Source: Lachnospiraceae bacterium (GTDB taxonomy: Bacteria > Bacillota > Clostridia > Lachnospirales > Lachnospiraceae). From it: a stretch of DNA of 51,554 nt. Below are positions 1,381 to 32,058 of this stretch, piece after piece (the stretch's first letter is position 1; each line of letters begins with the position of its first letter). Location of the stretch: the NCBI GenBank assembly GCA_017889125.1, contig JAGHER010000067.1, forward strand, positions 1 through 51,554, in the 5' to 3' direction. Below the pieces are notes generated by a model. It did no database searches. It saw nothing but the letters and a program-made list of their open reading frames with translations, and was not told the DNA's origin. Made by a program: the position numbers and the translations under genes.

Positions 1381-1395
1381 TTTTAATAATTAAAA
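1381..1395 (+). promoter_or_regulatory. Perfect 15-bp palindrome, candidate IclR operator (site 1)
   Basis: TTTTAAT-A-ATTAAAA is a perfect 7+1+7 inverted repeat. Near-identical copies lie at 5350-5364 and 5423-5437, each with one arm mismatch, in front of the sugar-binding protein. The shared sequence, its position downstream of both promoters and the IclR gene in this operon make it a candidate operator. The link to that regulator is inference. Confidence 0.6.
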
Positions 1396-1407
1396 GAAGA
1401 GGGCGAA

Positions 1408-2142
1408 ATGAAGCTGACAGAGGGGATTTATCTATGCGGCAGCGGTGCATATGGCCTGACGCCGGAGGGGGATTGTCACTGTTATGTTATTGACGGAGGA
1501 GAAGAACTGGCGATGATTGACTGCGGGCTGCAGAATGATCCGCAGGCGATCTTGGCGGAAATGGAAAAGGACGGCCTGGATCTGGGACGGTTGCGATATT
1601 TATTTTTGACGCATGTTCATCCGGACCATGCCGGTGGCTGCCAGTGGCTTCAGAAAAACTGTGGAGTTTGTGTTATGGCGGGAGAGGAAGAAGGGAAAGT
1701 CCTTGAATCTGGCTTGCAGAAAGCCTTTAATCTGGAAAAGATTCCAGACGGATTTGCGTCATATACGAAAATTTTGCGGGCTGTGCCTGACCATATCCTG
1801 CATGACGGGGAAGAGATTGCTGTGGGAGCGCTGAAGGTAACTGCGGTGCACAGCCCGGGGCATACGCCGGGTTCTTACAGCTTTTTTACCGATACACGGG
1901 GAGGCAGGCAGCTTTTTTGCGGGGATCAGGTGTTTTATCATGGATTTATCAGTCTTTTGGCACCGCCGTTTTCCGCATATGGGCAATATTTACAGGGACT
2001 GAAAAAGTTAAGTGCGCTGAACGCAGATGGACTTTTTCCGGGGCATTTGCTGTGGACGCTGAGAAATGGGCACAGACATATCGATGAAGCAGTATGGAAT
2101 ATGGAGTCGGGTCAGAGGCCTGAGCTGAAGCCATTTTCATAG
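1408..2142 (+). CDS. MBL-fold metallo-hydrolase
   Basis: The 244-residue protein carries the metal-binding signature of the metallo-beta-lactamase fold: H69-x-H71-x-D73-H74 in T-H-V-H-P-D-H-A-G-G, H152 in S-P-G-H-T-P-G, D173 in C-G-D-Q and H213 in F-P-G-H. This is the arrangement of glyoxalase-II-like hydrolases, with two metal ions cleaving a thioester, lactone or ester. There is no signal peptide, so it is cytoplasmic. It is the first gene of an operon with an SDR dehydrogenase, so lactone hydrolysis after sugar oxidation is one reasonable guess, but the substrate is not visible. The ribosome site is AGAGGGCG before the ATG. Confidence 0.85.
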   Translation: MKLTEGIYLCGSGAYGLTPEGDCHCYVIDGGEELAMIDCGLQNDPQAILAEMEKDGLDLGRLRYLFLTHVHPDHAGGCQWLQKNCGVCVMAGEEEGKVLESGLQKAFNLEKIPDGFASYTKILRAVPDHILHDGEEIAVGALKVTAVHSPGHTPGSYSFFTDTRGGRQLFCGDQVFYHGFISLLAPPFSAYGQYLQGLKKLSALNADGLFPGHLLWTLRNGHRHIDEAVWNMESGQRPELKPFS

Positions 2143-2218
2143 AGGAGCGAGTTATCATCGTCTCCCGGATAAAGACAATACTGTTCAAGAGGAATGGATA
2201 AGATTGGGGGTATGCAAA

Positions 2219-3088
2219 ATGGGAGAACGAGTAAAGGGAAGGGCCGCTCTGGTTACCGGGGCCGGCAGAGGGATTGGACGGGCAGTGGCTTTGACGCTGG
2301 CCCGGGAGGGGGCGGATGTCCTGGTCAATGAGAAAGAGGAGCGTGCTCTGGAGAAGGTATATCAGGAGCTGAAAGAGGAGGCCCGAGGCGGAAAAGTGGC
2401 CAGATTTGCAGCAGACGTCAGTGATGAGAAGCAGGTAAATGCGATGATGGATTACCTGTTGGCGGAGTTTGGGAAGATTAATATCGTGGTGAATAATGCG
2501 GCGGTAACCATTCCCCGTCCGGCGCTGACTTATACAACGGATTTCTGGGATGAGACAATCCGCACGAATCTCTATTCTTCTTACTTTACGTGCCTTCGAG
2601 CTGCCAGGGAAATGATTTCCCGGGGAGAGAAAGGGAGTTTCATTAATTTTTCTTCCATAGGAGCGCAAAAGCCACACCGGCAGCTTATGGCCTATGACAC
2701 CAGCAAGGGCGCGCTGGATTCCTTTACCAGAGCACTGGCCTTAGAACTGGCGCCCTTTGATATTACGGTAAATGCGGTGGCTCCGGCATCGATCCTGGGC
2801 GCCAATGTACGGCCGATGGATCCCAAAGTAGCGCAGCGGCGGGAACCGGTTGATTTTGCGACGCCGGTCACGAGAGAGGGAGAACCGCAGGATGTAGCGA
2901 ATCTGGTATTATTTCTGGCTAGCCCGGAGGCTTCGTTTATCACCGGTCAGATTATTGCGGTGGATGGCGGTTTGAGCGTGCAGGCAAGGCCGGTAACTAT
3001 GGCTCCGCTGGAGATTACGCCGCAGAATATCCATGAGGTGTATTTTAAAGATAAAAAGGAAATAAAGGTGGGCATTAACAATGAATAA
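2219..3088 (+). CDS. SDR family NAD(P)-dependent oxidoreductase
   Basis: Classical short-chain dehydrogenase of 289 residues. It has T-G-A-G-R-G-I-G at 13-20 (cofactor binding), N-N-A-A-V at 92-96, a serine in F-S-S-I-G near 145, and Y159-x-x-x-K163 in the active site. An in-frame TTG at 2204 would add five residues, but the G-rich ribosome site (2206-2210) fits the ATG at 2219 better. The C-terminus runs about 30 residues past the usual V-D-G-G end. It overlaps the IclR start by eight bases, so translation is coupled. It probably oxidises a sugar or reduces a keto-sugar derived from the imported glycan; the substrate is unknown. Confidence 0.9.
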   Translation: MGERVKGRAALVTGAGRGIGRAVALTLAREGADVLVNEKEERALEKVYQELKEEARGGKVARFAADVSDEKQVNAMMDYLLAEFGKINIVVNNAAVTIPRPALTYTTDFWDETIRTNLYSSYFTCLRAAREMISRGEKGSFINFSSIGAQKPHRQLMAYDTSKGALDSFTRALALELAPFDITVNAVAPASILGANVRPMDPKVAQRREPVDFATPVTREGEPQDVANLVLFLASPEASFITGQIIAVDGGLSVQARPVTMAPLEITPQNIHEVYFKDKKEIKVGINNE

Positions 3089-3896
3089 GACGGTATCTGC
3101 AGGGGTGAAAACCAATCAGTCATCAGAAAAATTATTAAAAATGATCGAGTATCTGGCTGGACAGAGAGAACCGAAGCGCCTTTTGGATATATCCCGGGAG
3201 ATGGGGATCAACAGCAGCACGGCGCTCCGCTTTTTGACTGCTTTAGTGGAAAATGGCTATGCGGCTCAGGATGTGGAATCCTCCCGGTATTACCTTACCT
3301 GCAAAATATGCGGTTTGGCCAATCAGGTTCTGCAGAATACAGATATCCGAACGATCGCCCGGCCCTATATGATGGAGATATCCAGCATGTTTGGGGAGAC
3401 CGTCTGTCTGGCGGTGGAGAAGGATATGAAGGTGGTTTATATTGATGTAATCGAAAGTCCCAATTCCATTATCCGCTCTATGCAGCGAATTGGAAATATA
3501 GCGCCTATGCACTGTACAGGAATCGGAAAGCTTTTGCTGTTAAATTATACGGAGAAGGATATCGACCGGCTGATCTTTAAGGAAGGGCTGACGCGCTTTA
3601 CCGAGCATACACCGGCAAGCAAATGGGAACTTATGGAACTGCTGAAGCAGGTGAAAAGAGAAGGAGTAGCCTACGACAATGAGGAATGTGAAATCGGCGC
3701 TAGGTGCGTGGCAGCACCGGTATACGATGCTTCTCAGAGGGTGGCTGCCGGGATCAGCGTAACCGGGCCGGTGAGCAGGCTTACGGATGAGCTGATCGAG
3801 CCAAGGCTGGAAAAATTTAAAGAGATAACGATGGAAATTTCGCAAAAGCTGGGCTATCGGGCACTTGAAAATGGAGAGGCCTGTGCCGGAGACTGA
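3081..3896 (+). CDS. IclR-family transcriptional regulator
   Basis: The 271-residue protein has an N-terminal winged helix at about 15-75 (R-L-L-D-I-S-R-E-M-G-I-N-S-S-T-A-L-R-F-L and E-N-G-Y). The effector-binding IclR domain follows, with I-A-R-P-Y-M, A-P-M-H-C-T-G-I-G-K-L-L-L and the D-N-E-E-C-E-I-G-A-R-C-V-A-A-P-V-Y-D block near 190-210. Family members bind short palindromes and are released or activated by small acids such as keto-sugar acids. It is co-translated with the SDR and followed after 11 bases by the GH10 gene. The palindromes at 1381, 5350 and 5423 are its most likely targets. Confidence 0.93.
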   Translation: MNKTVSAGVKTNQSSEKLLKMIEYLAGQREPKRLLDISREMGINSSTALRFLTALVENGYAAQDVESSRYYLTCKICGLANQVLQNTDIRTIARPYMMEISSMFGETVCLAVEKDMKVVYIDVIESPNSIIRSMQRIGNIAPMHCTGIGKLLLLNYTEKDIDRLIFKEGLTRFTEHTPASKWELMELLKQVKREGVAYDNEECEIGARCVAAPVYDASQRVAAGISVTGPVSRLTDELIEPRLEKFKEITMEISQKLGYRALENGEACAGD

Positions 3897-3907
3897 GAGG
3901 GAAAAGA

Positions 3908-5140
3908 ATGTCGGAGGGAGAAGGATTCAGAAAAATCAAAGAAACGCTGCAGATTATGGATGAGTCTGGCAGACCGCAGTGCGGCTGCCAGGTAAGATTT
4001 CGTTTAAAACAGCACAAATTTCTTTTTGGCTGCGGAGCCTTTGAAGCCGTAGACTGGCTTAACCCCGGGCCGGATACCGATGGTTCATTTTATGGGGATA
4101 TGATGGAAAAATGGTTCCGTTTGTTTAATTTTGCCACCCTTCCTTTTTACTGGGGGTATTTTGAAAAAAAAGAAGGGGAGCCGGAGACGGCAAAGCTTCT
4201 GAAAACGGCGCAGTATATGGCAGGCAGAGGGATCGCGCTTAAGGGGCATCCTCTTTGCTGGCATACGAATTGTGCAGACTGGCTTTTGCAGTACCCGGAC
4301 CATGTAATCTTTCAGAAGCTGCTGGAACGGATATATCGGGAGATCAGTGACTTTAAGCCGTTTATTCATTTCTGGGATGTGATCAATGAGACGGTGATCA
4401 TGCCGGAGTTTAACCGGTATGACAATGCCGTTACCAGGATCTGCCGCAGATACGGAAGAAATACCCTGATCAAGGAGGTTTTTGCGGCAGCAAGAGCGGC
4501 GGATCCGAATGCATTTCTGCTGATTAATGATTTTAATACTAGCCATAAGTATGAGGCAGTTATTGAGGAGGCGTTAGAAGGCGGGGTGTCTGTTGATGGC
4601 ATCGGCATTCAGTCTCATCAGCATCAGGGGTACTGGGGGCGGGAGAAGCTTACGGATGTGATCGCCCGCTTTTCCCGTTTTGGGCTTCCCCTGCATTTTA
4701 CGGAAAATACGCTGACTTCAGGGCATTTGATGCCGCTGGACATTGTGGATCTTAATGATTATCAGGTGGAAGAATGGCCCACAACCCCTGAAGATGAACG
4801 CCGTCAGAGTGAGGAGACAGAGGAGATGTTCAGGATCCTCTGGGAGTCGCCTGCGGTGGAGGCAGTTACGGAATGGGATTTTGCGGACAATGCATGGCTT
4901 CATGCCCCGGCGGGCCTGGTAAGGGAGGGAGATAACAGCCTGAAGCCGGCTTACGATAAGCTGGATGAGCTGATCAACCGGGAATGGCATACAGAATTGT
5001 GTGAAATGACGGATGAACAGGGCTTTATTGTGTTCGAAGGCATCCAGGGGCTTTATCATATTGAGGCCGGTGGAAAAGCTGCAGACGCAAAGCTTGCAGA
5101 TGGTCAGGAACGTCGGATATTGCTGCGTGCCTGCGAATAG
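3908..5140 (+). CDS. GH10 endo-1,4-beta-xylanase-type enzyme, intracellular
   Basis: GH10 family hallmarks are present in order: K-G-H-P-L-C-W-H at 112-119, W-D-V-I-N-E with acid/base E161, G-I-G-I-Q-S-H near 231-237, and nucleophile E266 in L-H-F-T-E-N-T-L. The 410-residue length suits a single catalytic domain with a short C-terminal extension. There is no signal peptide, so it should act on imported xylo-oligosaccharides rather than polymer. The nucleophile context T-E-N lacks the usual T-E-L/M-D, so substrate preference may differ from textbook xylanases. It is the last gene of the operon from 1408, before a strong terminator. Confidence 0.88.
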   Translation: MSEGEGFRKIKETLQIMDESGRPQCGCQVRFRLKQHKFLFGCGAFEAVDWLNPGPDTDGSFYGDMMEKWFRLFNFATLPFYWGYFEKKEGEPETAKLLKTAQYMAGRGIALKGHPLCWHTNCADWLLQYPDHVIFQKLLERIYREISDFKPFIHFWDVINETVIMPEFNRYDNAVTRICRRYGRNTLIKEVFAAARAADPNAFLLINDFNTSHKYEAVIEEALEGGVSVDGIGIQSHQHQGYWGREKLTDVIARFSRFGLPLHFTENTLTSGHLMPLDIVDLNDYQVEEWPTTPEDERRQSEETEEMFRILWESPAVEAVTEWDFADNAWLHAPAGLVREGDNSLKPAYDKLDELINREWHTELCEMTDEQGFIVFEGIQGLYHIEAGGKAADAKLADGQERRILLRACE

Positions 5141-5166
5141 CCCGCTGCAGGAAAACGGGAGAAACG

Positions 5167-5216
5167 ATACGGTTGAAATGGATATAAGACTATGTCCATT
5201 TCAGCCGTATTTTTTG
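5167..5216 (+). terminator. Rho-independent terminator after GH10
   Basis: An 18-base stem runs from 5167 (ATACGGTTGAAATGGATA) to the right arm at 5193-5210 (TGTCCATTTCAGCCGTAT), with G-T pairs allowed, and is followed by six Ts. It separates the IclR operon from the transporter operon. The gene-free stretch 5141-5450 otherwise holds the next promoter and two copies of the palindrome. Confidence 0.9.
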
Positions 5217-5296
5217 TGAAGAGAAGGAAAAAAACATAGCCCAAAAATGGGAAAGCAAAAATATACAGAAAAGCGGTAAAAAAGAGAAAAATATTG

Positions 5297-5325
5297 TTGA
5301 AAAATACAGAAGCATGCAGTATAAT
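5297..5325 (+). promoter_or_regulatory. Sigma-A promoter of the xylan-locus transporter operon
   Basis: TTGAAA (5297-5302) and a perfect TATAAT (5320-5325) are separated by exactly 17 bases. The first downstream palindrome starts 24 bases after the -10, nearly the same geometry as at the MBL promoter, pointing to shared control. Confidence 0.85.
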
Positions 5326-5349
5326 GAGGATGTAAAAAGTAAAACTAAA

Positions 5350-5364
5350 TTTCAATAATTAAAA
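5350..5364 (+). promoter_or_regulatory. 15-bp palindrome, candidate IclR operator (site 2)
   Basis: TTTCAAT-A-ATTAAAA has one mismatch between the arms. It lies just downstream of the promoter at 5297-5325, in the transcribed leader of the sugar-binding protein. Confidence 0.58.
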
Positions 5365-5422
5365 CCAAAAGGATAAATCGCCGCGATACACTGTCCTAAT
5401 AAGAAATGATAAGAAAAATAAA

Positions 5423-5437
5423 TTTTAATAATCAAAA
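5423..5437 (+). promoter_or_regulatory. 15-bp palindrome, candidate IclR operator (site 3)
   Basis: TTTTAAT-A-ATCAAAA has one mismatch between the arms. It sits immediately before the ribosome site of the binding-protein gene and 73 bases after site 2, about seven helical turns, so cooperative binding or looping is possible. Confidence 0.58.
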
Positions 5438-5450
5438 TAAGGAGGGCCTT

Positions 5451-6887
5451 ATGAGAAGAAGATTTTTGGCGCTGTTGATGGCGTCCACAATGACAGCAGG
5501 TATGCTTAACGGGTGTTCCGGTTCAGGTGCAGGTACTGCCTCTTCACCGGCAGAGAATGGGAATGCGGCGCAGACAACGGCTGACGCTGACGGAAGCGGC
5601 CAGATGGAAGCTGCGGAGATGACGACCATCACCGTCTGGAACAATGCCGCTCATGAGACAACGATCCGCGAAAAGCAGATTGAGGAGTTCAACAATGGAG
5701 AGGGAAAAGCGCTGGGGATCTACATTGATTACCAGACCTACGGCGACAACTATGCAGACACCATTAAGATTGCGGCACAGGCGGGAGAAGCGCCGGAGCT
5801 GTTTTCCTATGATTCAAAATGGGGAATGGATTTCATTGATGCAGGCTACCTGGTTCCCCTTGAGGATCTTCCGGGAAGCGAAGCTCTGATCGAGAAGTTT
5901 AAGCCGTATCTGTCCAACCAGGGCCAGGTATTTAATGGAAAAACGTATACGCTGCCGTATTCGCTGACAACCTACGGTTTTGTGATCAATAAGGATCTGT
6001 TTGCGCAGGCAGGAATGACGGAAGAGGATTATCCCACCACCTGGGAGGAGGTTAAGGAATGCGCCAGAAAGATTACTGACGCTTCCGGCGGCAAGGCCTA
6101 TGGCCTGGGCCTTTCTAGTACGCTGTGGACGGTAAGCTCCTTCTATACGATGGGAAATGGGCGAAATATAGGCCATTACGGCTATGACTGGAATAACCGG
6201 CGTTTTAACTATTCTGCTTATAATCCTATGGTAAAAGCAATCGATGAGATGTCCGCTGAGGGCACGATCTTCCCGGGCTTTGAGAATCTTGACGGCGATT
6301 CTGTTCGGGCACAGTTTGCGGCAGGCAATATTGGAATGATGGGAGCGGCCAGCTTTGACTGTTCTGTTTATACCAACCAGTTCCCGGCTGTGTGCGACTG
6401 GACGGTGATCGACATTCCTAAATTTGAGGAGGATGCAAAGCAGTACAAGCCTTTTGGCAATTCGGTGAATCTGTTATGTGTCGGGACCAAGGGACTGGAG
6501 CATCCGGAAAAGGTGCTGAAGGTGCTGGAATTCTTCTACGATGATGCTAATGCTGCAGAGATGTACGAAAACGGCATTTATATTCCGGTAAGGCCGGAGG
6601 CCATTGAGATGGTTGAAACTGAGCCGACGTTAAAGGGATGGGCAGAATTTGCAGATTTTGACGAGATATTTGCGATGCCTCCGGTTCCGGATACACTGAT
6701 CAATGTGGAAGGGACCACCTATCGAGAGGCGATGGTAAACATTTGGACGAATCCCGATCTGGATGATGTAGAGGGGATCATGGCTGATATAGATCAGCGC
6801 TATAATGATGCGCTTTCCAAGGCGGATCAGGCTACGGTAGACCTTTATGTGCTGCCGGAGGGGGTAACGCCTGAGTCTGGCAAATAA
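5451..6887 (+). CDS. ABC transporter sugar-binding lipoprotein (family 1)
   Basis: The 478-residue extracellular solute-binding protein begins with a lipoprotein signal peptide (M-R-R-R-F-L-A-L-L then L-N-G-C, with lipidated Cys22) and a Ser/Gly/Ala-rich linker. The type I carbohydrate-binding body then starts at T-I-T-V-W-N-N-A-A-H. The start at 5451 is set by GGAGGGC six bases upstream; an upstream in-frame ATG at 5406 would spoil the signal peptide. It captures an oligosaccharide, probably xylan-derived, for the permeases at 8345 and 9274. No ATPase is encoded nearby, so a shared MsmK/UgpC-type ATPase is expected elsewhere. A terminator directly after it should keep its level above the downstream genes. 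Confidence 0.92.
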   Translation: MRRRFLALLMASTMTAGMLNGCSGSGAGTASSPAENGNAAQTTADADGSGQMEAAEMTTITVWNNAAHETTIREKQIEEFNNGEGKALGIYIDYQTYGDNYADTIKIAAQAGEAPELFSYDSKWGMDFIDAGYLVPLEDLPGSEALIEKFKPYLSNQGQVFNGKTYTLPYSLTTYGFVINKDLFAQAGMTEEDYPTTWEEVKECARKITDASGGKAYGLGLSSTLWTVSSFYTMGNGRNIGHYGYDWNNRRFNYSAYNPMVKAIDEMSAEGTIFPGFENLDGDSVRAQFAAGNIGMMGAASFDCSVYTNQFPAVCDWTVIDIPKFEEDAKQYKPFGNSVNLLCVGTKGLEHPEKVLKVLEFFYDDANAAEMYENGIYIPVRPEAIEMVETEPTLKGWAEFADFDEIFAMPPVPDTLINVEGTTYREAMVNIWTNPDLDDVEGIMADIDQRYNDALSKADQATVDLYVLPEGVTPESGK

Positions 6888-8330: not shown

Positions 8331-8344
8331 GGGGAATGAATGGA

Positions 8345-9259
8345 ATGAAAAAAAGAATAGGAAAGTATCGCCGAAGTACGGATTCTACACAGGCATTAAT
8401 CATGCTTGCCCCTATGTTTATCGGGTTTGTTATTTTTACCTATGTACCGATCATTTACATTTTAAGGTATGCTTTTTATCAGTCTAATGGATTTTCGGAA
8501 GAATGGATCGGGATCCGGAACTTTGTCCGGCTGTTTACCCGGGATACCATGTACTGGACTTCGGTAGCCAATACCTTTATCCTTGCCTTTGGCAAACTTC
8601 TTCTGGAGATCCCCCTGGCCCTTCTGCTGGCTGTCCTGCTGAACCGGGGGCTGAAGGCGACCGGATTTTTCCGGGTGACGCTGTTTCTCCCGGCAATTAT
8701 CAGTACGGCAATTACCGGTTTGATCTTCTCTCTGATGTTTGCGGCATACAACGGCATCATCAACGATATGCTGATGAACGCAGGATTGATATCGAGGGCC
8801 ATTAACTGGTTCGGCAATAAATGGACGGCGCTGTTTGTGCTGGGACTGGCTTCTGTGTGGAACAATTTCGGGATTAATATGATCTTTTTCCTGATGGCGC
8901 TGCAGAGCGTGCCCATGGAATTGTATGAATGCGCGGAAATCGATGGGATCACTCCGTTAAAGAAGTTTTTCTACATTACCCTTCCGATGATCGGGCCGAC
9001 CTTCCAGGCGGTATTGCTGATGGCGATCGTAGGAAGCCTCAAGGTTGCGGATCTGATCCTGGCATCGACAAATGGCCAGCCGGCAGGCGGGACGGAAGTG
9101 GTGATGACGTACGTATTTAAATACTTCTTTGGCTATGACGGAAGAAACATCGAGGTAGGCTATGCATCCGCCATGGCGGTAATCACCGGCATTATCCTGG
9201 CGATCGTTTCGTTCATTTACATGAAATCAACAAACAAGCTTGGACACAGCACAGAGTAA
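8345..9259 (+). CDS. ABC sugar transporter permease, MalF-like
   Basis: The 304-residue protein has six or so membrane segments and the permease EAA loop (E-C-A-E-I-D-G-I-T-P-L-K-K-F-F-Y-I-T-L-P near 200-220) that docks to the ATPase. It begins with a basic tail and L-I-M-L-A-P-M-F-I-G-F, as in MalF/UgpA-type subunits. ATG codons occur in frame at 8336 and 8345. The AGGGGG ribosome site (8329-8334) is too close to the first, so 8345 is preferred. It pairs with the MalG-like subunit that follows after 14 bases. Confidence 0.9.
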   Translation: MKKRIGKYRRSTDSTQALIMLAPMFIGFVIFTYVPIIYILRYAFYQSNGFSEEWIGIRNFVRLFTRDTMYWTSVANTFILAFGKLLLEIPLALLLAVLLNRGLKATGFFRVTLFLPAIISTAITGLIFSLMFAAYNGIINDMLMNAGLISRAINWFGNKWTALFVLGLASVWNNFGINMIFFLMALQSVPMELYECAEIDGITPLKKFFYITLPMIGPTFQAVLLMAIVGSLKVADLILASTNGQPAGGTEVVMTYVFKYFFGYDGRNIEVGYASAMAVITGIILAIVSFIYMKSTNKLGHSTE

Positions 9260-9273: not shown

Positions 9274-10125
9274 ATGATGAAAATAAAGAAAAAGACAATT
9301 TCCGCGGCGATAATTTATCTTGTGCTTTCGGTGATCTTTGTGATCGTGATCTTCCCGGTTCTTTATACGATCCTGGGTTCATTTAAGGGGAATATGGAAT
9401 TGCTGACAGAAGGAAACAGCTTATTTCCCAAGCGGTTTGTTCTGGAAAATTATGTCCAGGCATGGAACATGGGCAATTTTGCAAAATACACCTGGAACTC
9501 GATCTTTATGTCGGGAACCATTGTCCTGGGAACGATTTTTACCAGTACGATCGCTGGCTATTGCTTTGAACGGGGCAAATTTCCCTTTAAAAATTTCCTG
9601 TTTCTCATGGTGGTTTCCTCCATGTTCGTGAACCTGGGAAGTCTGACGCTTTATCCGCAGTTTGCCATTGCCAAGGTGTTTGGGATCAACAAATCCCTCT
9701 GGGGCGTGATCATTATCCGGGTATTTGGCCTGAACGTGACGAACCTGTTTATTACCCGGTCATACATTCGCTCGATCTCTGTGGAGATCGATGAATCGGC
9801 AAAGGTGGACGGATGTTCCTTTTTCTCCATATATGTGCGGATCATCCTTCCCCTGCTGAAGCCTTTGATTGCCACTATTGCCATTCTGGAGTTCCGCCAT
9901 TCGTGGAATGATTATCTGATGCCAATGGTATTTACCCTGTCGAACCCGGACAGAATGCCGTTAATCGTAGGGATCATGAACCTGAAGGGATCGGGCGTGG
10001 CCGCCTCTTCCTGGAACCTTATGCTGGCCGGTTCCGCCATCGCGCTGGTTCCCATGATCGTGGTGTACCTGATCTTCAACCGGTATTTCATTGAAGGACT
10101 TACCGCCGGAGCAGTAAAGGGATAA
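9274..10125 (+). CDS. ABC sugar transporter permease, MalG-like
   Basis: The 283-residue membrane protein has an N-terminal membrane anchor (about residues 8-32), a periplasmic-side stretch with F-V-L-E-N-Y, then further membrane segments. Its EAA motif reads D-E-S-A-K-V-D-G-C-S-F-F-S-I-Y. The end Y-F-I-E-G-L-T-A-G-A-V-K-G is typical of the CUT1 MalG/UgpE group. AAAGGTGG precedes the ATG pair. It forms the membrane channel with the preceding permease; the ATPase must be supplied from elsewhere. Confidence 0.92.
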   Translation: MMKIKKKTISAAIIYLVLSVIFVIVIFPVLYTILGSFKGNMELLTEGNSLFPKRFVLENYVQAWNMGNFAKYTWNSIFMSGTIVLGTIFTSTIAGYCFERGKFPFKNFLFLMVVSSMFVNLGSLTLYPQFAIAKVFGINKSLWGVIIIRVFGLNVTNLFITRSYIRSISVEIDESAKVDGCSFFSIYVRIILPLLKPLIATIAILEFRHSWNDYLMPMVFTLSNPDRMPLIVGIMNLKGSGVAASSWNLMLAGSAIALVPMIVVYLIFNRYFIEGLTAGAVKG

Positions 10126-10161: not shown

Positions 10162-12264
10162 ATGGAAAAGACGGACAGAGAAAAGGAGAAATCTTCGGCG
10201 GTGAAGACAGCGCTGGGTCTGCTGGATAGGGTGTATCCGGGGATTGCGTCTTACCTGCGGGAGCGGCTGGTTCTCCGGGAAGATCCGGGACTCCCCTCTC
10301 AGGGGTATCGCTGCTGGACGCAGGAGGAAAAGGTATTTGTGGAGGCGGCGGACCGGGCGGGATATCTGTATGGGATCCTGGCGATCCCGGAACAGATGCC
10401 GGAAGCGATTGGAGAGCAGTCCTTCTGCATTCCGGAGGGAAAATGCTTTCAGGAAACGCCCTATATTCTGAAGCGGGGGATCAAATTTAATCTTCCCCTG
10501 GACGCCAGGACGCCCAGCTACTCAGATGCGTCAGATTCGGCCTTTGAAACGATCCCGCTGGTGTGGACGAAGGAATTCTGGAGAAGATTTCTGGATGAGA
10601 TGGCGTCAAATCGATACAACGTACTTACCTTATGGTCACTTTCACCTTTTCCTTCGATGGTGGTCATCCCGGAGTTCCCCAGGACGGCTCTCTGGGATGT
10701 AAAGCGCTCGTCCATTCCGCCTAAGCCGGAAATGAGCGGGAGATCCATGTTTTCGGCGGATATGAAGGCAGGCCTTTATCCGGTAAAGAAGCTGTCTCCA
10801 GAAGAGAAGGTAAACTTCTGGAGATGGGTAATGGAGTACGCCGCAGAACGGTGCATAGAAGTGTATCTGTTCACCTGGAATCTCTTTGTCTATGGAACGG
10901 AAGACAGCGGGTACGGCATCACGGAAAGCCAGAGGAATCCTGTTACAAGGGCGTATCTGTACTGTGCGGTGAAAGCCATGTTGGAGACGTATCCTCTTTT
11001 GAGGGGAATTGGGATTACCGCCGGTGAAAATATGGAAAAAAGCAGTGCAGACCTGGAGTTTCTGCGGGATACATACGGCCGTGCGGTGGAGGATTTCCAG
11101 AAAACCCATCCAGAGCGCAGGATCAGCCTGATCCACCGGCTTCATTATTCAGAAGCAGAGCGGATGGAGCAGCTGTATGAGGGCTTTTCGGCGGACTTTG
11201 CCGTCAGCTTTAAGTATTCACAGGCACATATGTATTCTTCTCCGGATCCGGATTTCTTCCGCCAGTTTGTCCGTGAGCATCCGGGCCGGTACCCGTACTG
11301 GCTGACTCTGCGGGATGATGACAACTACCTTTACCGGTGGGGAGACTGGGAATATGCCAGGGCATATGTAAAGAACCTTCCGGTCCGGCAGATAGAAGGC
11401 TTTTATATGGGTGCGGACGGATTTACCTGGGGAATGGATTTTACCTCCAGGGATCCCCAAAAGCGGCAGCTTTATCTGGAAAAGATGTGGTTTAAGCTTC
11501 GGATCTGGGGACAGCTGGCCTTCTGCCCGGAGCGAAAGGCGGAAAGCCTGTGGATGCCGGCAAAGAGACGTTTGGGAGCTGCCGCAGATATGGAGTTTGC
11601 CGATCTGTGGCGGGAGGCTTCGGGAATCCTTCCCCTGGTAAATTGTGTTCACTGGCATGATTACGATTTCCAGTGGTATCCGGAGGGCTGCTGCTGCTTC
11701 CTTCATCCGCCCGTCGGCAAGCTGGTATTTGCCAGTATCCGTGAGTTTATGTCCTGCCCGGCCATGCCGGGAAGCGGCTTTCTTTCGGTAATGGAATACT
11801 GCCGGAATAAAGGGCGCTGCCGGGATGAACAGACGGAAGAAGGGAAGATTACGCCGCTGCAGGCTGCCAGTGAGATTGGACAGAAGGCGCGGCGGGTGCT
11901 CCGTGAACTTGCAAAGCGCTGGGACAGCGCGACGGGAACGGAGGAATATCAGGATACGCTGGCGGATATCCGGGCAATGGCCCTGCTGGGGCTTTATTAC
12001 AGCCATAAGCTGGAGGCCGCAGTGGAACTGTGCCGGTTTCGCCTGGAACCGGATCATCCGGAGGCAAAGGAAAGAAGCGTGGCTCTTTTAAAGCAGGCAG
12101 CCGGGGAGTGGTGCGCCTACTCGGCACACGCCATGGGCATTTACCGGCCGCAGCGGCTTTCGAGGCTGCGAAGCTATGTGGATTTTTCCATGTTTGACCG
12201 GGCGGCCTGGCTGGATGTAGAACTTGCTGAGACAGAAGAGGGCGGGCAGGAGGTGTGCGAATGA
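10162..12264 (+). CDS. Putative glycoside hydrolase with alpha-glucuronidase-like layout
   Basis: Large cytoplasmic protein of 700 residues with no signal peptide. The first ~110 residues look like the small alpha/beta domain that precedes GH20/GH67 barrels (V-E-A-A-D-R-A-G-Y-L-Y-G-I-L-A-I-P-E-Q). A barrel-like body follows, starting K-R-G-I-K-F-N-L-P-L-D-A-R-T-P-S-Y, with acidic and aromatic strand ends such as G-I-T-A-G-E-N-M (near 288), T-L-R-D-D-D-N-Y and G-A-D-G-F-T-W-G-M-D-F. The C-terminal ~200 residues are helical. Beside GH10 and GH3, removal of a glucuronic-acid side chain would make sense, but family membership is not certain. Its stop overlaps the next start by four bases (ATGA). 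Confidence 0.65.
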   Translation: MEKTDREKEKSSAVKTALGLLDRVYPGIASYLRERLVLREDPGLPSQGYRCWTQEEKVFVEAADRAGYLYGILAIPEQMPEAIGEQSFCIPEGKCFQETPYILKRGIKFNLPLDARTPSYSDASDSAFETIPLVWTKEFWRRFLDEMASNRYNVLTLWSLSPFPSMVVIPEFPRTALWDVKRSSIPPKPEMSGRSMFSADMKAGLYPVKKLSPEEKVNFWRWVMEYAAERCIEVYLFTWNLFVYGTEDSGYGITESQRNPVTRAYLYCAVKAMLETYPLLRGIGITAGENMEKSSADLEFLRDTYGRAVEDFQKTHPERRISLIHRLHYSEAERMEQLYEGFSADFAVSFKYSQAHMYSSPDPDFFRQFVREHPGRYPYWLTLRDDDNYLYRWGDWEYARAYVKNLPVRQIEGFYMGADGFTWGMDFTSRDPQKRQLYLEKMWFKLRIWGQLAFCPERKAESLWMPAKRRLGAAADMEFADLWREASGILPLVNCVHWHDYDFQWYPEGCCCFLHPPVGKLVFASIREFMSCPAMPGSGFLSVMEYCRNKGRCRDEQTEEGKITPLQAASEIGQKARRVLRELAKRWDSATGTEEYQDTLADIRAMALLGLYYSHKLEAAVELCRFRLEPDHPEAKERSVALLKQAAGEWCAYSAHAMGIYRPQRLSRLRSYVDFSMFDRAAWLDVELAETEEGGQEVCE

Positions 12265-14330
12265 AATGGTGGAAAGGTACGCCATGGAGGCTGATCCAGA
12301 CAAACTTAAGTGAAATGGACTTTAAGGGACTGGATCCGGAGCGGTATGCGGCGGATGCAAAAGAATTTGGCGCTACGGTAGTAATGCTCAGTGCAGGAGG
12401 GATCAGCGCCCATTATGATTCCTCATTGACCTGGCAGGGGAGAAACTCCTGGGCGGAAGACGGGGTACTTGAACAGGTGGTGAAATGCTGCCACGAAAGG
12501 GATATCCACGTTATCGCCAGAGTGGATTTCTCCAAGGTAAAAAAAGAAATCTTTCTTAAAAACCCCCAGTGGGCCTTTCGGACTGCAGGGGGAGAGATCA
12601 TGGAATACAATGGCTATGTGCAGACCTGCATCAACAGCGATTATCAGCAGGAATACGCATTTCATATTCTTGAGGAAATCTTTACCCGGATCCCCTTTGA
12701 CGGCCTTTACTGCAATATGGGCGGGTTTCAGACAAAGGATTACGATTTCCGGGATTACGGGTTCTGCCATTGCGCGGCCTGCAGAGCGCAGTTTCGCGCC
12801 GCGTTTGGAAAGGAGATCCCTGAGCAGGCGGATCTGACGGATGCCGGTTATCGGGACTATCTGGATTTTCAGCGAGGGGTCGTGGCAGGATACCGGAAAA
12901 AGATGGCGGAATATCTGCGGCAGCTTGGAAAGCGGCTTTCACGGGATCTTTGCTTTGATGATGTGGATTATGGCCGGATCGAGGCTTCTACGGAAATTTC
13001 CCGAAGGCTTCCCCACTGGCCGTACCATGCTTCCAGCAACTGCAGGGCCGTCTTGGGTGACGGGAGCAGCGGGATCATCTGTTCGGATGCCTCTGTGGAC
13101 TTTATGGGCTATGCCCTGCGGAATGTGGGGGTAAGTCCGTGGCTTCAGGCTCTGCGGGAGTGGCAGAATCTGGCCAATCTGGGCGGGCTGGATTACTATC
13201 TCATGGGCCGGATCGATAATCATGAGGATAGGAGAGGATTTTCGGCGGTAAAACGGGTATTCCAGTTTCAGAAGGCGCACGAGCAGGCTTATGCAGGGCT
13301 TAAAAATAAGGCAAAGGTTCTTCTGCGGCGCAGTGCCAGATGGGAGATCACCGATGAGGAAAAAGGCTGGGTGGGGACACTGACGGAAAGGCACATCCCG
13401 TTTGGAGAGATCCTTCCGGAAGAGTATGAGACGGCTGACTTAAGCCGGTATTCCGTGGTTATCCTTCCGGACAGCCGGAATATCACTGACCGGGAAATGA
13501 GACAGTCGGAGGAGTTTGCCCGGGATGGCGGAACGCTGATCGTGTCCGGACAGACCGGCTATCTCTGCCCGCCGTCAAAGGAAAGAGAGGATTTTCTCCG
13601 CTGTCTGGGAATACGTCAGGTGAAGGATTTCTGCACAGATATGCTTTCTGCCTGCTTTCAGATCCGCGATACGGAAAAACGGGTATTTTCTTCATTTGCA
13701 GATTGTGATGTGGCAGCGCTGGGAGACCGCTATCAGTTTTTGGAGATGGAGCCGGAGGCAAAAGGCTTTCTGGCCATGGTACCGGCGCATACCTATGGGC
13801 CGCCGGAATGCTGCTACTATACAGCGGTGACAGGGGAGCCGGCCTGTATCGAGTTTGCCTGGGGCAGGGGAAAGACGATAACCGTTCCCTGGTTTCCGGG
13901 AGAATTATACAGCCGCACAGGGTTTGACAATCCTGCCCTGTTCATGGGGGATGTGCTGAAGAATCTGGGCGGATGCGAAAGCCTCTCAGAGAGCCTTTCT
14001 CCCATGGTGGAGGTAACCTATGCAGAAAAGGGAACCGATTGGGATATGGTGCAGCTGGTGAATACCAGCGGATGCTTCAGCTTAAGCTTTTTTGCACCTG
14101 TTCCCATGGAGGCAATTGAATTGCAGATTCCCTGTCAGGAACCGCCCGAACAGGTATTTGCTCTGGCGGGAGGGAAAACAGAGTGGAGGCTGGAAAAGGA
14201 CAGGCTGGTCATTCAATTGGATATTCTGCGAGAGTATGAAGCAATTTTGATAAAAAAGCACGGTACGGATAGCGGTAGCTGCGATCAACTGGAAAATCCC
14301 GCAGGTACAGATATCCGCAGCGATAAATAA
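12261..14330 (+). CDS. GHL6 / beta-galactosidase-trimerisation-like glycosyl hydrolase
   Basis: The 689-residue protein begins W-W-K-G-T-P-W-R-L-I-Q-T-N-L-S-E-M-D and continues G-A-T-V-V-M-L-S-A-G-G-I-S-A-H-Y, the look of 'hypothetical glycosyl hydrolase 6' barrels. C-H-C-A-A-C-R-A-Q-F near 172-181 could bind a metal. A glutamine-amidotransferase-like domain follows around 370-520 (S-V-V-I-L-P-D-S-R-N-I-T, then G-G-T-L-I-V-S-G-Q-T-G), as in the trimerisation domain of GH42-type proteins, and a small beta domain ends it. GCAGGAGG precedes the ATG at 12261. The four-base overlap with the previous gene implies matched amounts and perhaps a joint task. Substrate unknown; no signal peptide. Confidence 0.7.
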   Translation: MKWWKGTPWRLIQTNLSEMDFKGLDPERYAADAKEFGATVVMLSAGGISAHYDSSLTWQGRNSWAEDGVLEQVVKCCHERDIHVIARVDFSKVKKEIFLKNPQWAFRTAGGEIMEYNGYVQTCINSDYQQEYAFHILEEIFTRIPFDGLYCNMGGFQTKDYDFRDYGFCHCAACRAQFRAAFGKEIPEQADLTDAGYRDYLDFQRGVVAGYRKKMAEYLRQLGKRLSRDLCFDDVDYGRIEASTEISRRLPHWPYHASSNCRAVLGDGSSGIICSDASVDFMGYALRNVGVSPWLQALREWQNLANLGGLDYYLMGRIDNHEDRRGFSAVKRVFQFQKAHEQAYAGLKNKAKVLLRRSARWEITDEEKGWVGTLTERHIPFGEILPEEYETADLSRYSVVILPDSRNITDREMRQSEEFARDGGTLIVSGQTGYLCPPSKEREDFLRCLGIRQVKDFCTDMLSACFQIRDTEKRVFSSFADCDVAALGDRYQFLEMEPEAKGFLAMVPAHTYGPPECCYYTAVTGEPACIEFAWGRGKTITVPWFPGELYSRTGFDNPALFMGDVLKNLGGCESLSESLSPMVEVTYAEKGTDWDMVQLVNTSGCFSLSFFAPVPMEAIELQIPCQEPPEQVFALAGGKTEWRLEKDRLVIQLDILREYEAILIKKHGTDSGSCDQLENPAGTDIRSDK

Positions 14331-14348: not shown

Positions 14349-15293
14349 ATGAACATCGTTTTTTTGGAGCCGCTGGGGATTAAGCAGGAACAGCTGGCAA
14401 AGATTGTGGAAGAGTCTGTGGGAACGGAGGCGTCTGTCCGCTACTATCCGGACAGAGTGGAGGATGCTGAGGTACTGACCGAGAGAAGCCAGGGAGCAGA
14501 CTGTGTCGTTCTCTCGAATATGAAATATGGCAAAGACATTATTTCCAGGTGCCCGCAGCTGAAAATGATCTGCGTTGCGTTCACCGGCGTGGATTTGGTC
14601 GATATTGACTACTGCCGGGAGAGAGGAATACGGGTGTGCAACTGCGCCGGATATTCCACTGTGGCCGTGGCAGATCTGGTATTTGGCTTTGCCATCGATC
14701 TGGCCAGAAATATTCTCCCCTGCGATCAGGCGGTCCGTCAGGGCGGCACGAAGGCGGGGCTGGTGGGCTTCGAACTTGAGGGAAAGCGTTTTGGCGTGAT
14801 CGGCGCCGGGGCTATCGGTACCAGAGTGCTGAAGCTTGCCCAGGCATTTGGCTGCGAAACTTACGCATACAGCAGGACGAAAAAGCAGATTGAGGGAGTT
14901 TCCTTTGTGGAGCTTAATGAGCTTTTGCAGACCTGCGACATCATTTCTGTCCATGTTCCGCAGACGCCGGATACCGTGGGGTTGATTGGGAAAGAGCAGT
15001 TTGCCATGATGAAGAATACCGCATTGTTTATCAACACGGCCAGAGGGCCGATCGTGGACAGCAGTGCCCTGGCGCAGGCTTTAGACAGCGGGGAAATCGC
15101 CGGTGCGGCGGTGGATGTGTTTGAGATGGAGCCTCCTGTGCCGCAGGAGCATGTGCTTTTGCACGCCAGAAATTTGATCGCGACGCCGCATGTGGCTTTT
15201 GCATCGGCGCAGGCCTTTGAAAAGAGGGCGGTCATCGTAGCGGAAAATATCCGAAAATGGATGGATGGAGAACCGCAGAATGTAATCTGCTGA
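14349..15293 (+). CDS. D-isomer-specific 2-hydroxyacid dehydrogenase
   Basis: The 314-residue protein has the family's NAD-binding motif G152-A-G154-A-I-G157 followed by acidic/aromatic residues. Catalytic elements are R232 in N-T-A-R-G-P-I-V-D, the D-V-F-E-M-E-P-P block at 256-263, and H281 in A-T-P-H-V-A-F. It interconverts a 2-oxoacid and a D-2-hydroxyacid with NAD(H) in the cytoplasm. AGGAGG precedes the ATG. With an RraA-type aldolase next door, which releases or uses pyruvate-like acids, it may reduce the 2-oxoacid product (glyoxylate, hydroxypyruvate or similar) to recycle NADH. That step is inference. Confidence 0.9.
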   Translation: MNIVFLEPLGIKQEQLAKIVEESVGTEASVRYYPDRVEDAEVLTERSQGADCVVLSNMKYGKDIISRCPQLKMICVAFTGVDLVDIDYCRERGIRVCNCAGYSTVAVADLVFGFAIDLARNILPCDQAVRQGGTKAGLVGFELEGKRFGVIGAGAIGTRVLKLAQAFGCETYAYSRTKKQIEGVSFVELNELLQTCDIISVHVPQTPDTVGLIGKEQFAMMKNTALFINTARGPIVDSSALAQALDSGEIAGAAVDVFEMEPPVPQEHVLLHARNLIATPHVAFASAQAFEKRAVIVAENIRKWMDGEPQNVIC

Positions 15294-15321: not shown

Positions 15322-16029
15322 ATGACGGATAAAGAATTAATTCAGGAAATCAGAAAATATCGCTGCGCAGACCTGTCTGACGGGATGGATGCCATCGGAC
15401 TTGTGGATAAGGGAACGATGAATGAGTCCATGCGTCCTCTGCGCCCGGGAATCGAGTTTAAGGGATTTGCTTATACCGTTAAGCTGCTGCCGAAGACGGA
15501 CGGCGTTAAATGCTGCAGCACCATCGAAGAATGGCGGGAGGAGCTGGGAAAAGGCTGCAATGACATTTACAATTTTGTGGATGAGATAACGCCGGAAACG
15601 GCAAAGGATACGGTTATTGTGATTGACATGGACGGGATCCGGGGCGGAATCTGGGGCTCGGAGATTGCTATGAATATGATGATCCGGGGGATCGAGGGAG
15701 CCGTTGTGGATGGAGGCTGCCGGGATTCCTATGAGGTCAATCTGGAAAAAGCACCGGTATTCTGCACAAAGCGCACATTTACCCACGCCTACGGGCGGGT
15801 TCAGCGGGGAATGCTCAATGTTCCCATAAACTGTGCCGGTGTAACGGTGAATCCAGGGGATATTATCTGTGCAGATGACGACGGCGTACTGGTGATCCCC
15901 AGAGACAGGGCGGAGGAAGTGATCCGGTTTGCCCACATGCAGCTGGAAGATGACATTGAAACCCGATCCAGCCATTATGAAAAGCTGGGCTATGGCCATG
16001 ACGATACGCTGGACCGTCTGAAAAAATAA
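15322..16029 (+). CDS. RraA-family aldolase/decarboxylase-like protein
   Basis: The 235-residue protein shows the RraA-fold signature: G-G-I-W-G-S-E-I-A at 108-116, then G-A-V-V-D-G-G-C-R-D with R134-D135, the residues that bind the oxo-acid and metal in 4-hydroxy-4-methyl-2-oxoglutarate aldolase and oxaloacetate decarboxylase. The ATG at 15322 follows GGAGGGG and is preferred over a GTG at 15298. Stand-alone RraA-like proteins in catabolic operons are usually metal-dependent class II aldolases giving pyruvate, not RNase E regulators. It sits four genes from the end of the operon, between a hydroxyacid dehydrogenase and a carboxylate-type carrier, which favours an organic-acid pathway. Confidence 0.85.
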   Translation: MTDKELIQEIRKYRCADLSDGMDAIGLVDKGTMNESMRPLRPGIEFKGFAYTVKLLPKTDGVKCCSTIEEWREELGKGCNDIYNFVDEITPETAKDTVIVIDMDGIRGGIWGSEIAMNMMIRGIEGAVVDGGCRDSYEVNLEKAPVFCTKRTFTHAYGRVQRGMLNVPINCAGVTVNPGDIICADDDGVLVIPRDRAEEVIRFAHMQLEDDIETRSSHYEKLGYGHDDTLDRLKK

Positions 16030-25456: not shown

Positions 25457-25646
25457 AATAATCCACCTAAGTAATCAAAAACGTGAGTGTAAATGCGGAC
25501 GCTCATCCGATAGAATATAGCCATGGATGACAGAGAGTGACAGACCAAAGCGGACAGGCATCCAATTCCCGGCGGTTCAGCTGTTCACTGGCTGCGGCGA
25601 GTGCTACAATGGCGGTATAACGAAAAGCGTATCAGGAGGTTTGCCG

Positions 25647-26867
25647 ATGAAACGGATTGTGGGAGTGGGAATGACTGTGCTGCTTTTAGTAGCCGCAGCA
25701 GGCTGCAGGCAGCAGAAAGCACCGGATAAAGGGGAGACAGAAGGGATCGTGCTGACCATAAGCCTTCCGGAAGCGGAGTGGAATGGCTACACGGAGGAAC
25801 TGACAAAGCTTTACCGGCAGGAGCGGCCGAAAGTGGAAGACATCCGATGGAACCTGGTAGACCGAAGTATGTATGAAGATCTTCTGGGGGTCAATCTGGT
25901 GTCCCAAAACCTTCCGGACATTATCAGCGTGGGAAATCAGGTCCCTCTGACCGCATGGAGCGAGCATCTGGTGCCTCTTGATCTGGAGGCGGAAAAGGAA
26001 GGCATTTCCGAAAGGATCGTATCCTGGGGAAGGGTAGGCGAAAGCCTGTATTCCCTTCCGGTCCTGATCCAGGGGAAAGGCATTTTCTACAACACCGGAC
26101 TGCTGGAGGAGAATGGGATAAGACGTCTTCCACAGACCCGGTCAGAGCTTCTGGCCCTCTGCGGCACGCTTCAGGAGGCAGAGGTAAAGCCCATCATGAA
26201 TTATTACAAGGAAACGCTCCTTACCGATACCAGCTATCTGTTCTTCCTTCCGGCAATAGCGGGAGGAGCCAGGGAGGATTGGTACGCCCTGGCGGATTTC
26301 CTGGATCTGACCCTGGAATACGGGAACCGGAACGCGCTGACTACCGGAGTAGATACGGCCAGAGATTACTTTTTCATTGAAAAGTACGCCATGCTCAATA
26401 ATGAAGGGAGCTGGATGGTGCCTGCGATGCGCAGAAGCGCTCCGGAGATGGAGGAAAAGACCATCATCGGCTCCATTCCCCTTTATGAGGAGGCGGAGAG
26501 GAACCGGCTTCCGGTGGAAATCCTGTCCCTGTCCGTGACGAAGAGCAGCGAACACCAGGAGGAGGCCAAGGCCTTTCTGCTCTGGCTGGCTACCTCGGAG
26601 ACGGCCAGGGATTACCTGGAAAGGACCATGGGCTGTCTGACGGTTTCCGGAATGGAACGCGGGGATGACAAGGCGCTGTCGCCTGTCGCCGTCCAGGTAA
26701 AGGAAGCCATCCTGACCGGGCAGGCAGTTATTGATCAGTCGGGAAGCCTGCCGGAGGAGCTAAAGAGCGGTATCGCCAGTGTCTGGGCCAAATACATCAC
26801 CGGCCAGCTGGACCGGGATGCGGCGGCAGAAACGGCCTGCGCGCTCTGGAATTACGAGAAAAACTGA
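25647..26867 (+). CDS. Extracellular solute-binding lipoprotein (first of two)
   Basis: The 406-residue binding protein has a lipoprotein signal (M-K-R-I-V-G then V-A-A-A-G-C, lipidated Cys20). Its body begins L-T-I-S-L-P-E-A-E-W and shows family 1 features (L-P-D-I-I-S-V-G-N-Q; G-I-F-Y-N-T-G-L-L-E-E-N-G; N-N-E-G-S-W-M-V-P). AGGAGG precedes the ATG; upstream in-frame codons from 25527 give no signal peptide. It is divergent from the kinase gene. It may serve transport with the permeases at 30217/31159, or sensing with the kinase, since a second binding protein (27666) follows. Confidence 0.9.
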   Translation: MKRIVGVGMTVLLLVAAAGCRQQKAPDKGETEGIVLTISLPEAEWNGYTEELTKLYRQERPKVEDIRWNLVDRSMYEDLLGVNLVSQNLPDIISVGNQVPLTAWSEHLVPLDLEAEKEGISERIVSWGRVGESLYSLPVLIQGKGIFYNTGLLEENGIRRLPQTRSELLALCGTLQEAEVKPIMNYYKETLLTDTSYLFFLPAIAGGAREDWYALADFLDLTLEYGNRNALTTGVDTARDYFFIEKYAMLNNEGSWMVPAMRRSAPEMEEKTIIGSIPLYEEAERNRLPVEILSLSVTKSSEHQEEAKAFLLWLATSETARDYLERTMGCLTVSGMERGDDKALSPVAVQVKEAILTGQAVIDQSGSLPEELKSGIASVWAKYITGQLDRDAAAETACALWNYEKN

Positions 26868-26893
26868 ACAAAGAGAAAATGGAGGAAAAGCAC

Positions 26894-27637
26894 ATGTCGG
26901 TTATTCGCTATCAGAAGAAAGAGGATATGGTATTTACGGATTTAGGCAACGGGATTTCCCGCGCGGAAATGCTGCCGGGAATGGTAGAGGGCGTCCACAC
27001 CTGGAAATGCCAGGTAAAGGCAGGAACGGTAGTGACTTTGGAAACCTTCGGGGACCAGACGCAGATTTATTACTTTACCAGCGGCCAGGGCTTTGTGGTG
27101 ACGCCGAAGAAGGCCTTCAATATCGATGAGCCGTCTCTGTTCATTCCCCGGATGGATGAGGAAGAGAACGTGCTTCACGCGGTGACGGACATGGAGTTTT
27201 TGCAGCTGACCTGCGTGATGCTGCCGGAGGATGTGGAGCAGTTTGGCCACTGGCACATTGCCCTTCCCCGCTTCTGCCCATTAAGCGGATGCATCGAGTA
27301 TGTAGAGGGCTTCCGGCCGGAGGGGATCAAGGCTCTGTCCATCCTGGATACGCATTTCCTCACCAGAATGACCATGGGCGCCATCATTGGAAAGGGCCCC
27401 AACAAAGCGGAGCCGCACAGCCACAACGATCTGTATCAGTGGTATTACGGTATGCCGGGGACCAAGTTCATTTATCGGGCTGCCGGGGAGGAGATCGAGC
27501 TTCATGAAGGCGACTGGGCATTCATCCCCACGGATATTGAGCACGCCATTGAGATCAAAGAGAACGAGAACGTAAACTATGTATGGTTTGAGATTGAGCT
27601 GACGAAAGCAGAGCTGGAAGCGAAGAAGGCCAAGTAA
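26894..27637 (+). CDS. Cupin-domain protein (probable bicupin)
   Basis: The 247-residue cytoplasmic protein appears to hold two cupin barrels. The first (about 20-110) has F-T-S-G-Q-G-F-V-V-T-P-K-K-A-F but few metal-binding histidines. The second (about 140-240) has the clear motif E-P-H-S-H-N-D-L-Y-Q-W-Y-Y-G and E-G-D-W-A-F-I-P-T-D-I-E-H-A, which can bind a metal. GGAGG sets the start at 26894. Such proteins beside pectin genes may isomerise or bind uronates, as KduI does, but this is shorter and not clearly KduI. It lies between two binding-protein genes. Confidence 0.8.
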   Translation: MSVIRYQKKEDMVFTDLGNGISRAEMLPGMVEGVHTWKCQVKAGTVVTLETFGDQTQIYYFTSGQGFVVTPKKAFNIDEPSLFIPRMDEEENVLHAVTDMEFLQLTCVMLPEDVEQFGHWHIALPRFCPLSGCIEYVEGFRPEGIKALSILDTHFLTRMTMGAIIGKGPNKAEPHSHNDLYQWYYGMPGTKFIYRAAGEEIELHEGDWAFIPTDIEHAIEIKENENVNYVWFEIELTKAELEAKKAK

Positions 27638-27665
27638 TCAGAACAGGGGAAAGGGGAGTTTACTT

Positions 27666-29012: not shown

Positions 29013-29032
29013 GCTGATGCGCGGTTCATGTG

Positions 29033-29060
29033 AAGGGGCGCTGCAGAAGCGCCCCTTTTA
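29033..29060 (+). terminator. Terminator inside the pectin transporter operon
   Basis: AAGGGGCGCT (29033-29042) pairs with AGCGCCCCTT (29048-29057) across a five-base loop, followed by TT. No promoter is obvious before GH105, so read-through probably sets a lower level for the genes behind it. Confidence 0.8.
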
Positions 29061-29084
29061 AAAACCCAAAAGGAGGAGAACGCC

Positions 29085-30206: not shown

Positions 30207-30216
30207 GGGTGAGGTT

Positions 30217-31146: not shown

Positions 31147-31158
31147 GGGGGAGAAAAA

Positions 31159-32007: not shown

Positions 32008-32058
32008 TTGGCCAAAGGAGTTTCCATTAAACACACGTGAATTTGAGAGGGGATTGAA

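Follow-up and report, generated by a model that had tools for sequence, protein, structure and literature searches.

The 51,554-nt contig JAGHER010000067.1 of the Lachnospiraceae bacterium assembly GCA_017889125.1 (hereafter the window; contig C114 in our labelling, from a genome of 3.99 Mb in 266 contigs) contains three copies of a 15-base palindrome, which are very probably operators of the IclR-family regulator encoded at 3081-3896, such that two operons would be repressed by this protein and released by a small 2-oxo acid. Palindrome 1 (1381-1395, TTTTAATAATTAAAA) is perfect around one central base and lies directly 5' of the ribosome-binding-site (RBS)-like sequence of the gene at 1408, while palindromes 2 (5350-5364, TTTCAATAATTAAAA) and 3 (5423-5437, TTTTAATAATCAAAA) carry one mismatch each, the latter just 5' of the RBS-like sequence of the gene at 5451. 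Palindromes 1 and 2 are predicted IclR operators, and palindrome 3 is a predicted second operator, 73 bases from palindrome 2. The assignment draws on relatives of the regulator in other Clostridia, which carry similar sites in matching positions, several of them beside genes of glyoxylate metabolism.

The mechanism that we infer from this comprises binding by the window's IclR, repression, looping and an effector. An IclR dimer on a site 20-28 bases past the -10 element would stop RNA polymerase as it leaves the promoter or within the first transcribed bases, which would silence the operon that contains iclR (autoregulation) as well as the transport and catabolic operon. A tetramer may hold both members of the site pair before the 5451 gene, and a small 2-oxo acid, glyoxylate- or hydroxypyruvate-like, would probably release IclR.

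The presence of the sites, their conservation, their restriction to one clade and their geometry were established by computation. Nineteen orthologs of the regulator (43-69% identical) were taken from six loci of a named-genome scan (45-69%) and from 13 matches at E<=1e-60, all of which were used, and the controls were all 18 matches below 40% identity from one of the genome scans. The 300 bases upstream of each iclR gene were scored with a matrix for which only the three window sites served as input. A significant site (p<0.05 by dinucleotide shuffling) was found in 12 of the 19 ortholog regions (Fisher 3e-12) and in one of the 18 control regions (0.97), and matrices with permuted half-site columns were beaten in 10/19 ortholog regions (1.2e-10) and in no control region (0/18; 0.97). 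The conservation in relatives to which the original prediction had looked is therefore borne out, since the regions ahead of related iclR genes are enriched for the motif and those ahead of more distant ones are not. In the tree, the window IclR falls within a supported set of 15 (99/95), referred to here as the motif clade, and 11 of its 14 other members have a site at p<0.05, the exceptions being L017 (site at -329), L055 (p 0.0565) and L060. The next set of five (L061, L063-L066) has such a site in L066 only, and one control, L070, joins the orthologs by way of a long branch. The 29 sites scoring >=10 yield the family consensus ATTTYAATWATTRAAAT, which leans towards the window matrix, since its sites were selected with that matrix. 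Two recognition-helix signatures were considered and rejected: N at residue 44 occurs in 12/15 proteins of the motif clade and 0/5 of the outer set, but in 7/18 controls, and F at residue 51 in 15/15, 3/5 and 0/18, respectively, so that neither residue alone separates the three groups.

Sites also accompany the related transport operons. The closest relative, L016 (IclR 69% identical), has the gene order solute-binding protein (SBP), FAD oxidoreductase, permease, permease, D-2-hydroxyacid dehydrogenase (HADH) and IclR at 68-88% identity, and two sites 72 bases apart precede its SBP gene: by alignment, TTTTAATAATTGAAA is the counterpart of palindrome 2, and TTTTGATAATTAAAA aligns with palindrome 3. 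A promoter-like sequence there can likewise be aligned with that of the window, and a third, weaker copy, TTTTAATAATCGGAA, lies just upstream of the L016 iclR gene. In L104, the iclR gene (46%) is divergent to an operon of SBP, FAD oxidoreductase, permeases, RraA-like protein, u10162, GHL6, isomerase and HADH genes, and two sites 81 bases apart (best p 0.014) lie between them; the motif thus precedes the related transport operon at L016 and L104, in keeping with the original prediction of conservation at orthologous loci. In L103, a perfect palindrome, TTTCATTTAATGAAA, stands before the orthologous SBP operon on contig C89, with the iclR gene of that genome on C103. Two further sites lie away from iclR. 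In the genome of L018, whose iclR gene is on contig C75, TTTTAATAATTGAAA recurs on contig C34 (L092; p 0.001), 19 bases before a TIM-barrel isomerase-like gene that is followed by HADH. The genome of L020, with its iclR gene on C42, has the perfect palindrome TTTTAATAATTAAAA on contig C53 (L085:1501-1515), 19 bases before a sugar-ABC-permease-like gene, which makes this gene a further candidate target.

Relative to the predicted promoters, the sites lie where a repressor would hinder promoter escape or stand as a roadblock, a reading that the recurring spacing fits. Both promoters of the original prediction are present as consensus-like sequences on the forward strand. The first operon has TTGACT-17-TATGAT at 1331-1359 (10/12 consensus matches) and an overlapping, equally good alternative, TAGACA-17-TATAGT, at 1324-1352 (also 10/12), and the transport operon has TTGAAA-17-TATAAT at 5297-5325 (11/12), which aligns with the 8/12 promoter-like sequence of L016; the two of the first operon are identified from the consensus alone. 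Palindrome 1 starts 21 bases past the -10 of 1331-1359, or 28 past that of the alternative, and palindrome 2 starts 24 bases past the -10 of 5297-5325, which agrees with the 21-24 bases given earlier for the two promoters. Scoring against the promoter consensus found no promoter close upstream of palindrome 3. In a set of 24 sites hand-picked by the analyst, 12 have an upstream promoter-like sequence of >=9/12, and in eight of these 12 the site starts 20-28 bases past the -10: at 28 (or 21, depending on the choice of promoter) and 24 in the window, 24 in L055, 26 in L054, 25 in L059, 22 in L092 and 20 in both L019 and L020. The L016 SBP site lies 24 bases past the -10 of its 8/12 promoter, and in L103 a -10 read by eye lies 21 bases before the site, where the best promoter found by script scores only 6/12. 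On like grounds, regulators of Caldicellulosiruptor bescii whose sites fall within 5' leaders or overlap promoter elements, including the IclR-family KdgR, were taken as repressors (PMC8579813).

The same geometry bears on the alternative that survives best, namely that IclR, bound to the palindromes, activates transcription or acts with both signs. Activators usually bind at the -35 or further upstream, unlike the sites at both window promoters and six further ones, which start 20-28 bases past the -10, and the window promoters are themselves near consensus (11/12 and 10/12). A dual role has been proposed for BhcR (PMC11323563). Some sites lie over promoters or far from them, and the pair spacings vary: 72 bases in L016, 73 in the window, 74 in L056, 80 and 95 in L058, 81 in L104, 83 in L066, 91 in L019 and 98 in L020, with further spacings of 20, 40, 54 and 229 where weaker sites are involved. 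Taken together, we regard activation or a dual sign as unlikely. Strict helical phasing of the pairs was rejected as a general rule, with about seven turns found only in the window, L016 and L056.

A second alternative assigns the palindromes to some other, unlinked regulator. A strict pattern, TTTYRATNATYRAAA, was searched with no mismatch, the set being 13 of the 20 IclR-bearing genomes with the window's own among them. AT-rich palindromes serve many regulator families, and 11 strict matches occur in ten same-genus genomes that have no IclR match at E<=1e-60; these look like background, given nine matches to the reversed control in the same genomes. The 13 IclR-bearing genomes hold 17 strict places vs three for the reversed control, and eight of the 17 adjoin iclR relatives (three in G000, two in G1014 and one each in G1017, G253 and G149). 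As site presence tracks the IclR subclade and sites adjoin iclR itself in many species, an unlinked regulator appears very improbable.

Chance occurrence in AT-rich promoter regions can be set aside almost entirely. The intergenic stretches in question are 68-70% A+T, and the loose pattern (<=2 mismatches) shows no enrichment across the 3.99-Mb genome, with 41 places vs 50 for the reversed control, so that only the strict pattern is informative. In shuffles of 1046-1407 alone, one site with <=1 mismatch arose in 21/5000 cases, and in shuffles of 5141-5450 alone, two sites arose in none (0/5000); the three palindromes hold at the coordinates first given and exceed chance locally. Significant sites also occur in relatives of 56-60% GC. 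Within the window, four places with <=2 mismatches are seen vs 0.15 expected, the fourth of which, at 3043, is inside the SDR gene. On the frequency of the motif over the full genome, which the original prediction had raised, the strict motif proves rare and clustered at the locus: the own genome has four strict matches vs none for the reversed control, and three of its five places with <=1 mismatch are in the window locus. Equally negligible is an RNA-level element in 5' leaders, for while all three copies would be transcribed if the promoters are right and two stand directly before RBS-like sequences, a single base at the centre is too short for the loop of a hairpin, and in some relatives, L019, L020 and L104 among them, divergent genes flank the motif. 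Rarity, clade-specific conservation and synteny hence argue, at the level of sequence, for the IclR regulon that had originally been proposed.

Several results weigh against the operator reading. Significance at p<0.05 is not reached in seven of the 19 ortholog regions under shuffling, nor in nine under permuted matrices; the tree shows L018/L021 and L019/L020 as near-copies, which lowers the number of independent cases; and L060, although inside the motif clade, has no site upstream of its iclR gene. Among the orthologous SBP operons, the palindrome of L103 deviates from the window matrix (p 0.055), and the region upstream of the L105 SBP gene has no convincing site (p 0.056, no clear palindrome). 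Of the nine strict places away from iclR relatives, only L092 and L085 suggest a target, and none is evident for the other seven. The roadblock position of the original prediction stands insofar as the 20-28-base spacing recurs in other species, and fails in L104 (-1, overlapping the -10), the L016 iclR gene (9), L058 (34) and L056 (35).

As far as residues and gene neighbourhoods can tell, a xylan sugar is a less likely effector than a small 2-oxo acid of the glyoxylate or hydroxypyruvate type. The regulator carries both domains of the IclR family above the Pfam cut-offs (HTH_IclR, 38.5 bits against 22; IclR_C, 154.2 against 24), and reaches none of the NCBIfam equivalog cut-offs for BhcR (170.5/350 bits), AllR (118.1/406), IclR (136.9/380) and KdgR (156.5/275). 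At the positions contacting the glyoxylate oxygens (Gly160, Ala or Ile161, Asp212, Ser239 and Ser241 in E. coli IclR numbering, carried over by the analyst from PMC11323563), the window IclR has G-I-D-S-T vs G-I-D-S-S in BhcR in the residue table of that paper, and I, S, A, A stand in place of the hydrophobic patch. Seven of the 19 related loci have a glyoxylate-carboligase-like (gcl-like) gene; three such enzymes score 525-637 bits to two carboligase models, which are their top models on NCBIfam, yet stay below the cut-offs. Isomerase-like TIM barrels are found in L017, L019 and L055 (PF01261), in L104 by similarity, and in L020 and L092 by eye. Two allantoinases in L059, a glycerate kinase in L063 and the lactate racemase LarA in L061 exceed curated cut-offs, and class V aminotransferases occur in L064 and L066, with which L065 clusters; L061 and L063-L066 form the outer set, which is mostly without the motif. 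Two observations limit the case for glyoxylate in particular. G, D, S and S are kept in 17 of the 18 control IclRs, so that the effector residues discriminate poorly and argue for a 2-oxo acid in general, and the best match to the glyoxylate carboligase model TIGR01504 in the window's own genome reaches 325.6 bits vs 525-551 in three relatives, which places that genome outside a glyoxylate carboligase regulon on this measure and makes glyoxylate itself uncertain as the effector here.

A broader reading, which we put forward tentatively and at somewhat below even confidence, is that the clostridial IclR clade with the operator ATTTYAATWATTRAAAT is the AllR/BhcR analogue for a glyoxylate-to-glycerate route, and that some Lachnospiraceae-type bacteria have co-opted it for an undescribed pathway yielding a 2-oxo acid inducer from a sugar or sugar acid. 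The former route would consist of a glyoxylate-carboligase-like enzyme, a TIM-barrel isomerase and a 2-hydroxyacid dehydrogenase, and the latter of ABC uptake, FAD oxidoreductase, RraA-type aldolase, u10162 and GHL6.

The window motif is, judged by its sequence, of the general kind of group 1 IclR-family motifs, of which one subgroup is WTT-11-AAW, or WTTYCRYW3RYGRAAW (PMC8222616). It shares the 17-base frame, as ATT-11-AAT, and two window copies have their site centres at -20 and -21 from the start codon, the commonest position in that source being -22. It differs in that ATTTYAATWATTRAAAT has A and T at the inner positions for Y and R, with two other positions only partly C/G, and in pair spacings that are mostly 72-98 bases vs the 18-22 stressed there. 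The E. coli IclR operator, TGGAAATNATTTCCA (PMC8222616, Table 1), is likewise a 15-base odd palindrome bound by an IclR-family protein, with the outer T/A and the central AATNATT common to TTTYAATNATTRAAA, but half-site positions 2-4 are GGA in E. coli and TTY here, and the window sites lie beside a transport operon, not aceBAK. In the proteins, the oxygen-contacting effector residues of E. coli IclR are largely kept in the window IclR, whereas the pyruvate-methyl patch L, M, L, L is replaced by I, S, A, A. BhcR of Paracoccus denitrificans (PMC11323563) is closer in giving the best NCBIfam match of the window IclR, in Ile at 161 and in a patch mostly without the large hydrophobic residues of IclR; it has Ser at 241 where the window IclR has Thr, and the genes in the window form a sugar-type ABC operon. 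AllR, the allantoin/glyoxylate repressor, binds the gcl promoter in E. coli, and the neighbours of IclR relatives include gcl-like genes and, in L059, allantoinase genes; the AllR operator KTTGGAAWAWTWTTCCAAC (PMC8222616) differs from the window motif. No description of such a regulon in Clostridia was found in the literature searched, most subscription papers lying outside it.

Spacing, promoters and a terminator-like hairpin suggest two transcription units, all of whose genes are on the forward strand. The first runs from an MBL-fold hydrolase gene (PF00753, 1408-2142) through an SDR oxidoreductase gene (PF13561, 2219-3088) and iclR (3081-3896; Pfam, tree) to a GH10-family gene (PF00331, 3908-5140), and would be closed by an intrinsic-terminator-like hairpin at 5166-5211 (20-pair stem followed by a T run; by consensus only), so that the iclR gene is placed in the first operon as had been stated. 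The second begins with the ABC SBP gene (5451-6887; 69-75% identity in L016, L103 and L104, 49% in L105), the FAD_oxidored gene (PF12831, 6972-8330; 70-75% in L016 and L103-L105) and ABC permeases 1 (8336-9259; by similarity to related loci) and 2 (9274-10125; 88% in L016). It continues with u10162 (10162-12264), a 700-aa protein without Pfam match that has relatives in L055, L103 and L104 at 40-52% identity, a GHL6/GH42M-type glycosidase-like gene (12255-14330; relatives in L103 and L104), the HADH gene (14349-15293) and an RraA-like aldolase-family gene (15322-16029; 82% in L103, 73% in L104), followed by Mem_trans and GH5 genes. The N-terminus of u10162 matches an alpha-galacturonidase model weakly (60.4 bits vs a cut-off of 1300), and the protein may represent an undescribed glycosidase family.

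Across the related stretches, SBP, FAD oxidoreductase and the two permeases recur, in some together with RraA, u10162, GHL6 and HADH. The HADH family is found in at least nine of the 19 related IclR loci, a count that rose from eight after L019 and L020 were re-examined from open-reading-frame lists, gene calls in L019-L021 being partly antisense. The FAD oxidoreductase has matches in four of 397 family genomes, the own one included, while IclR matches at E<=1e-60 occur, besides the own genome, in 5/299 genomes of the family sample, 7/391 of the class sample and 1/392 of the order sample, and in the genus sample in the own genome alone (1/11); as these matches are sparse, the window locus looks accessory. 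The view of a xylan locus, as it had been called, was given up: the window's GH10, MBL and SDR genes have no relatives among the called genes of the 19 related IclR loci (some genes of L019-L021 being miscalled) or of L103-L105, GH10 is likewise absent from the 12.8-kb L016 stretch, and the xylanase is hence not conserved alongside regulator and transporter.

Elsewhere on the contig, which starts within a dihydrofolate-reductase-like gene (1-439, named by eye), a second sugar locus of pectin-directed appearance at 25527-34523 (SBPs, cupin, GH105-like, permeases and GH28-like, named by eye from translations) contains no copy of the palindrome within two mismatches. By the same kind of inspection, 40876-45564 holds a prepilin peptidase and type II secretion or type IV pilus-like gene set, and 47615-50401 encodes a glycogen branching enzyme-like protein whose long C-terminal tail is rich in Lys, Ala and Glu and resembles histone H1.

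What is new here is a probable regulon within a well-known family. For this regulator clade, the analysis supplies a testable operator sequence, a list of targets and a likely class of effector, and it marks SBP-FAD oxidoreductase-permeases-RraA-u10162-GHL6 as a recurring, probably regulated catabolic operon. The focus of assays moves accordingly from xylan to 2-oxo and 2-hydroxy acid chemistry, and what most deserves following is the connection with 2-oxo acid metabolism, together with the unnamed operon that recurs.

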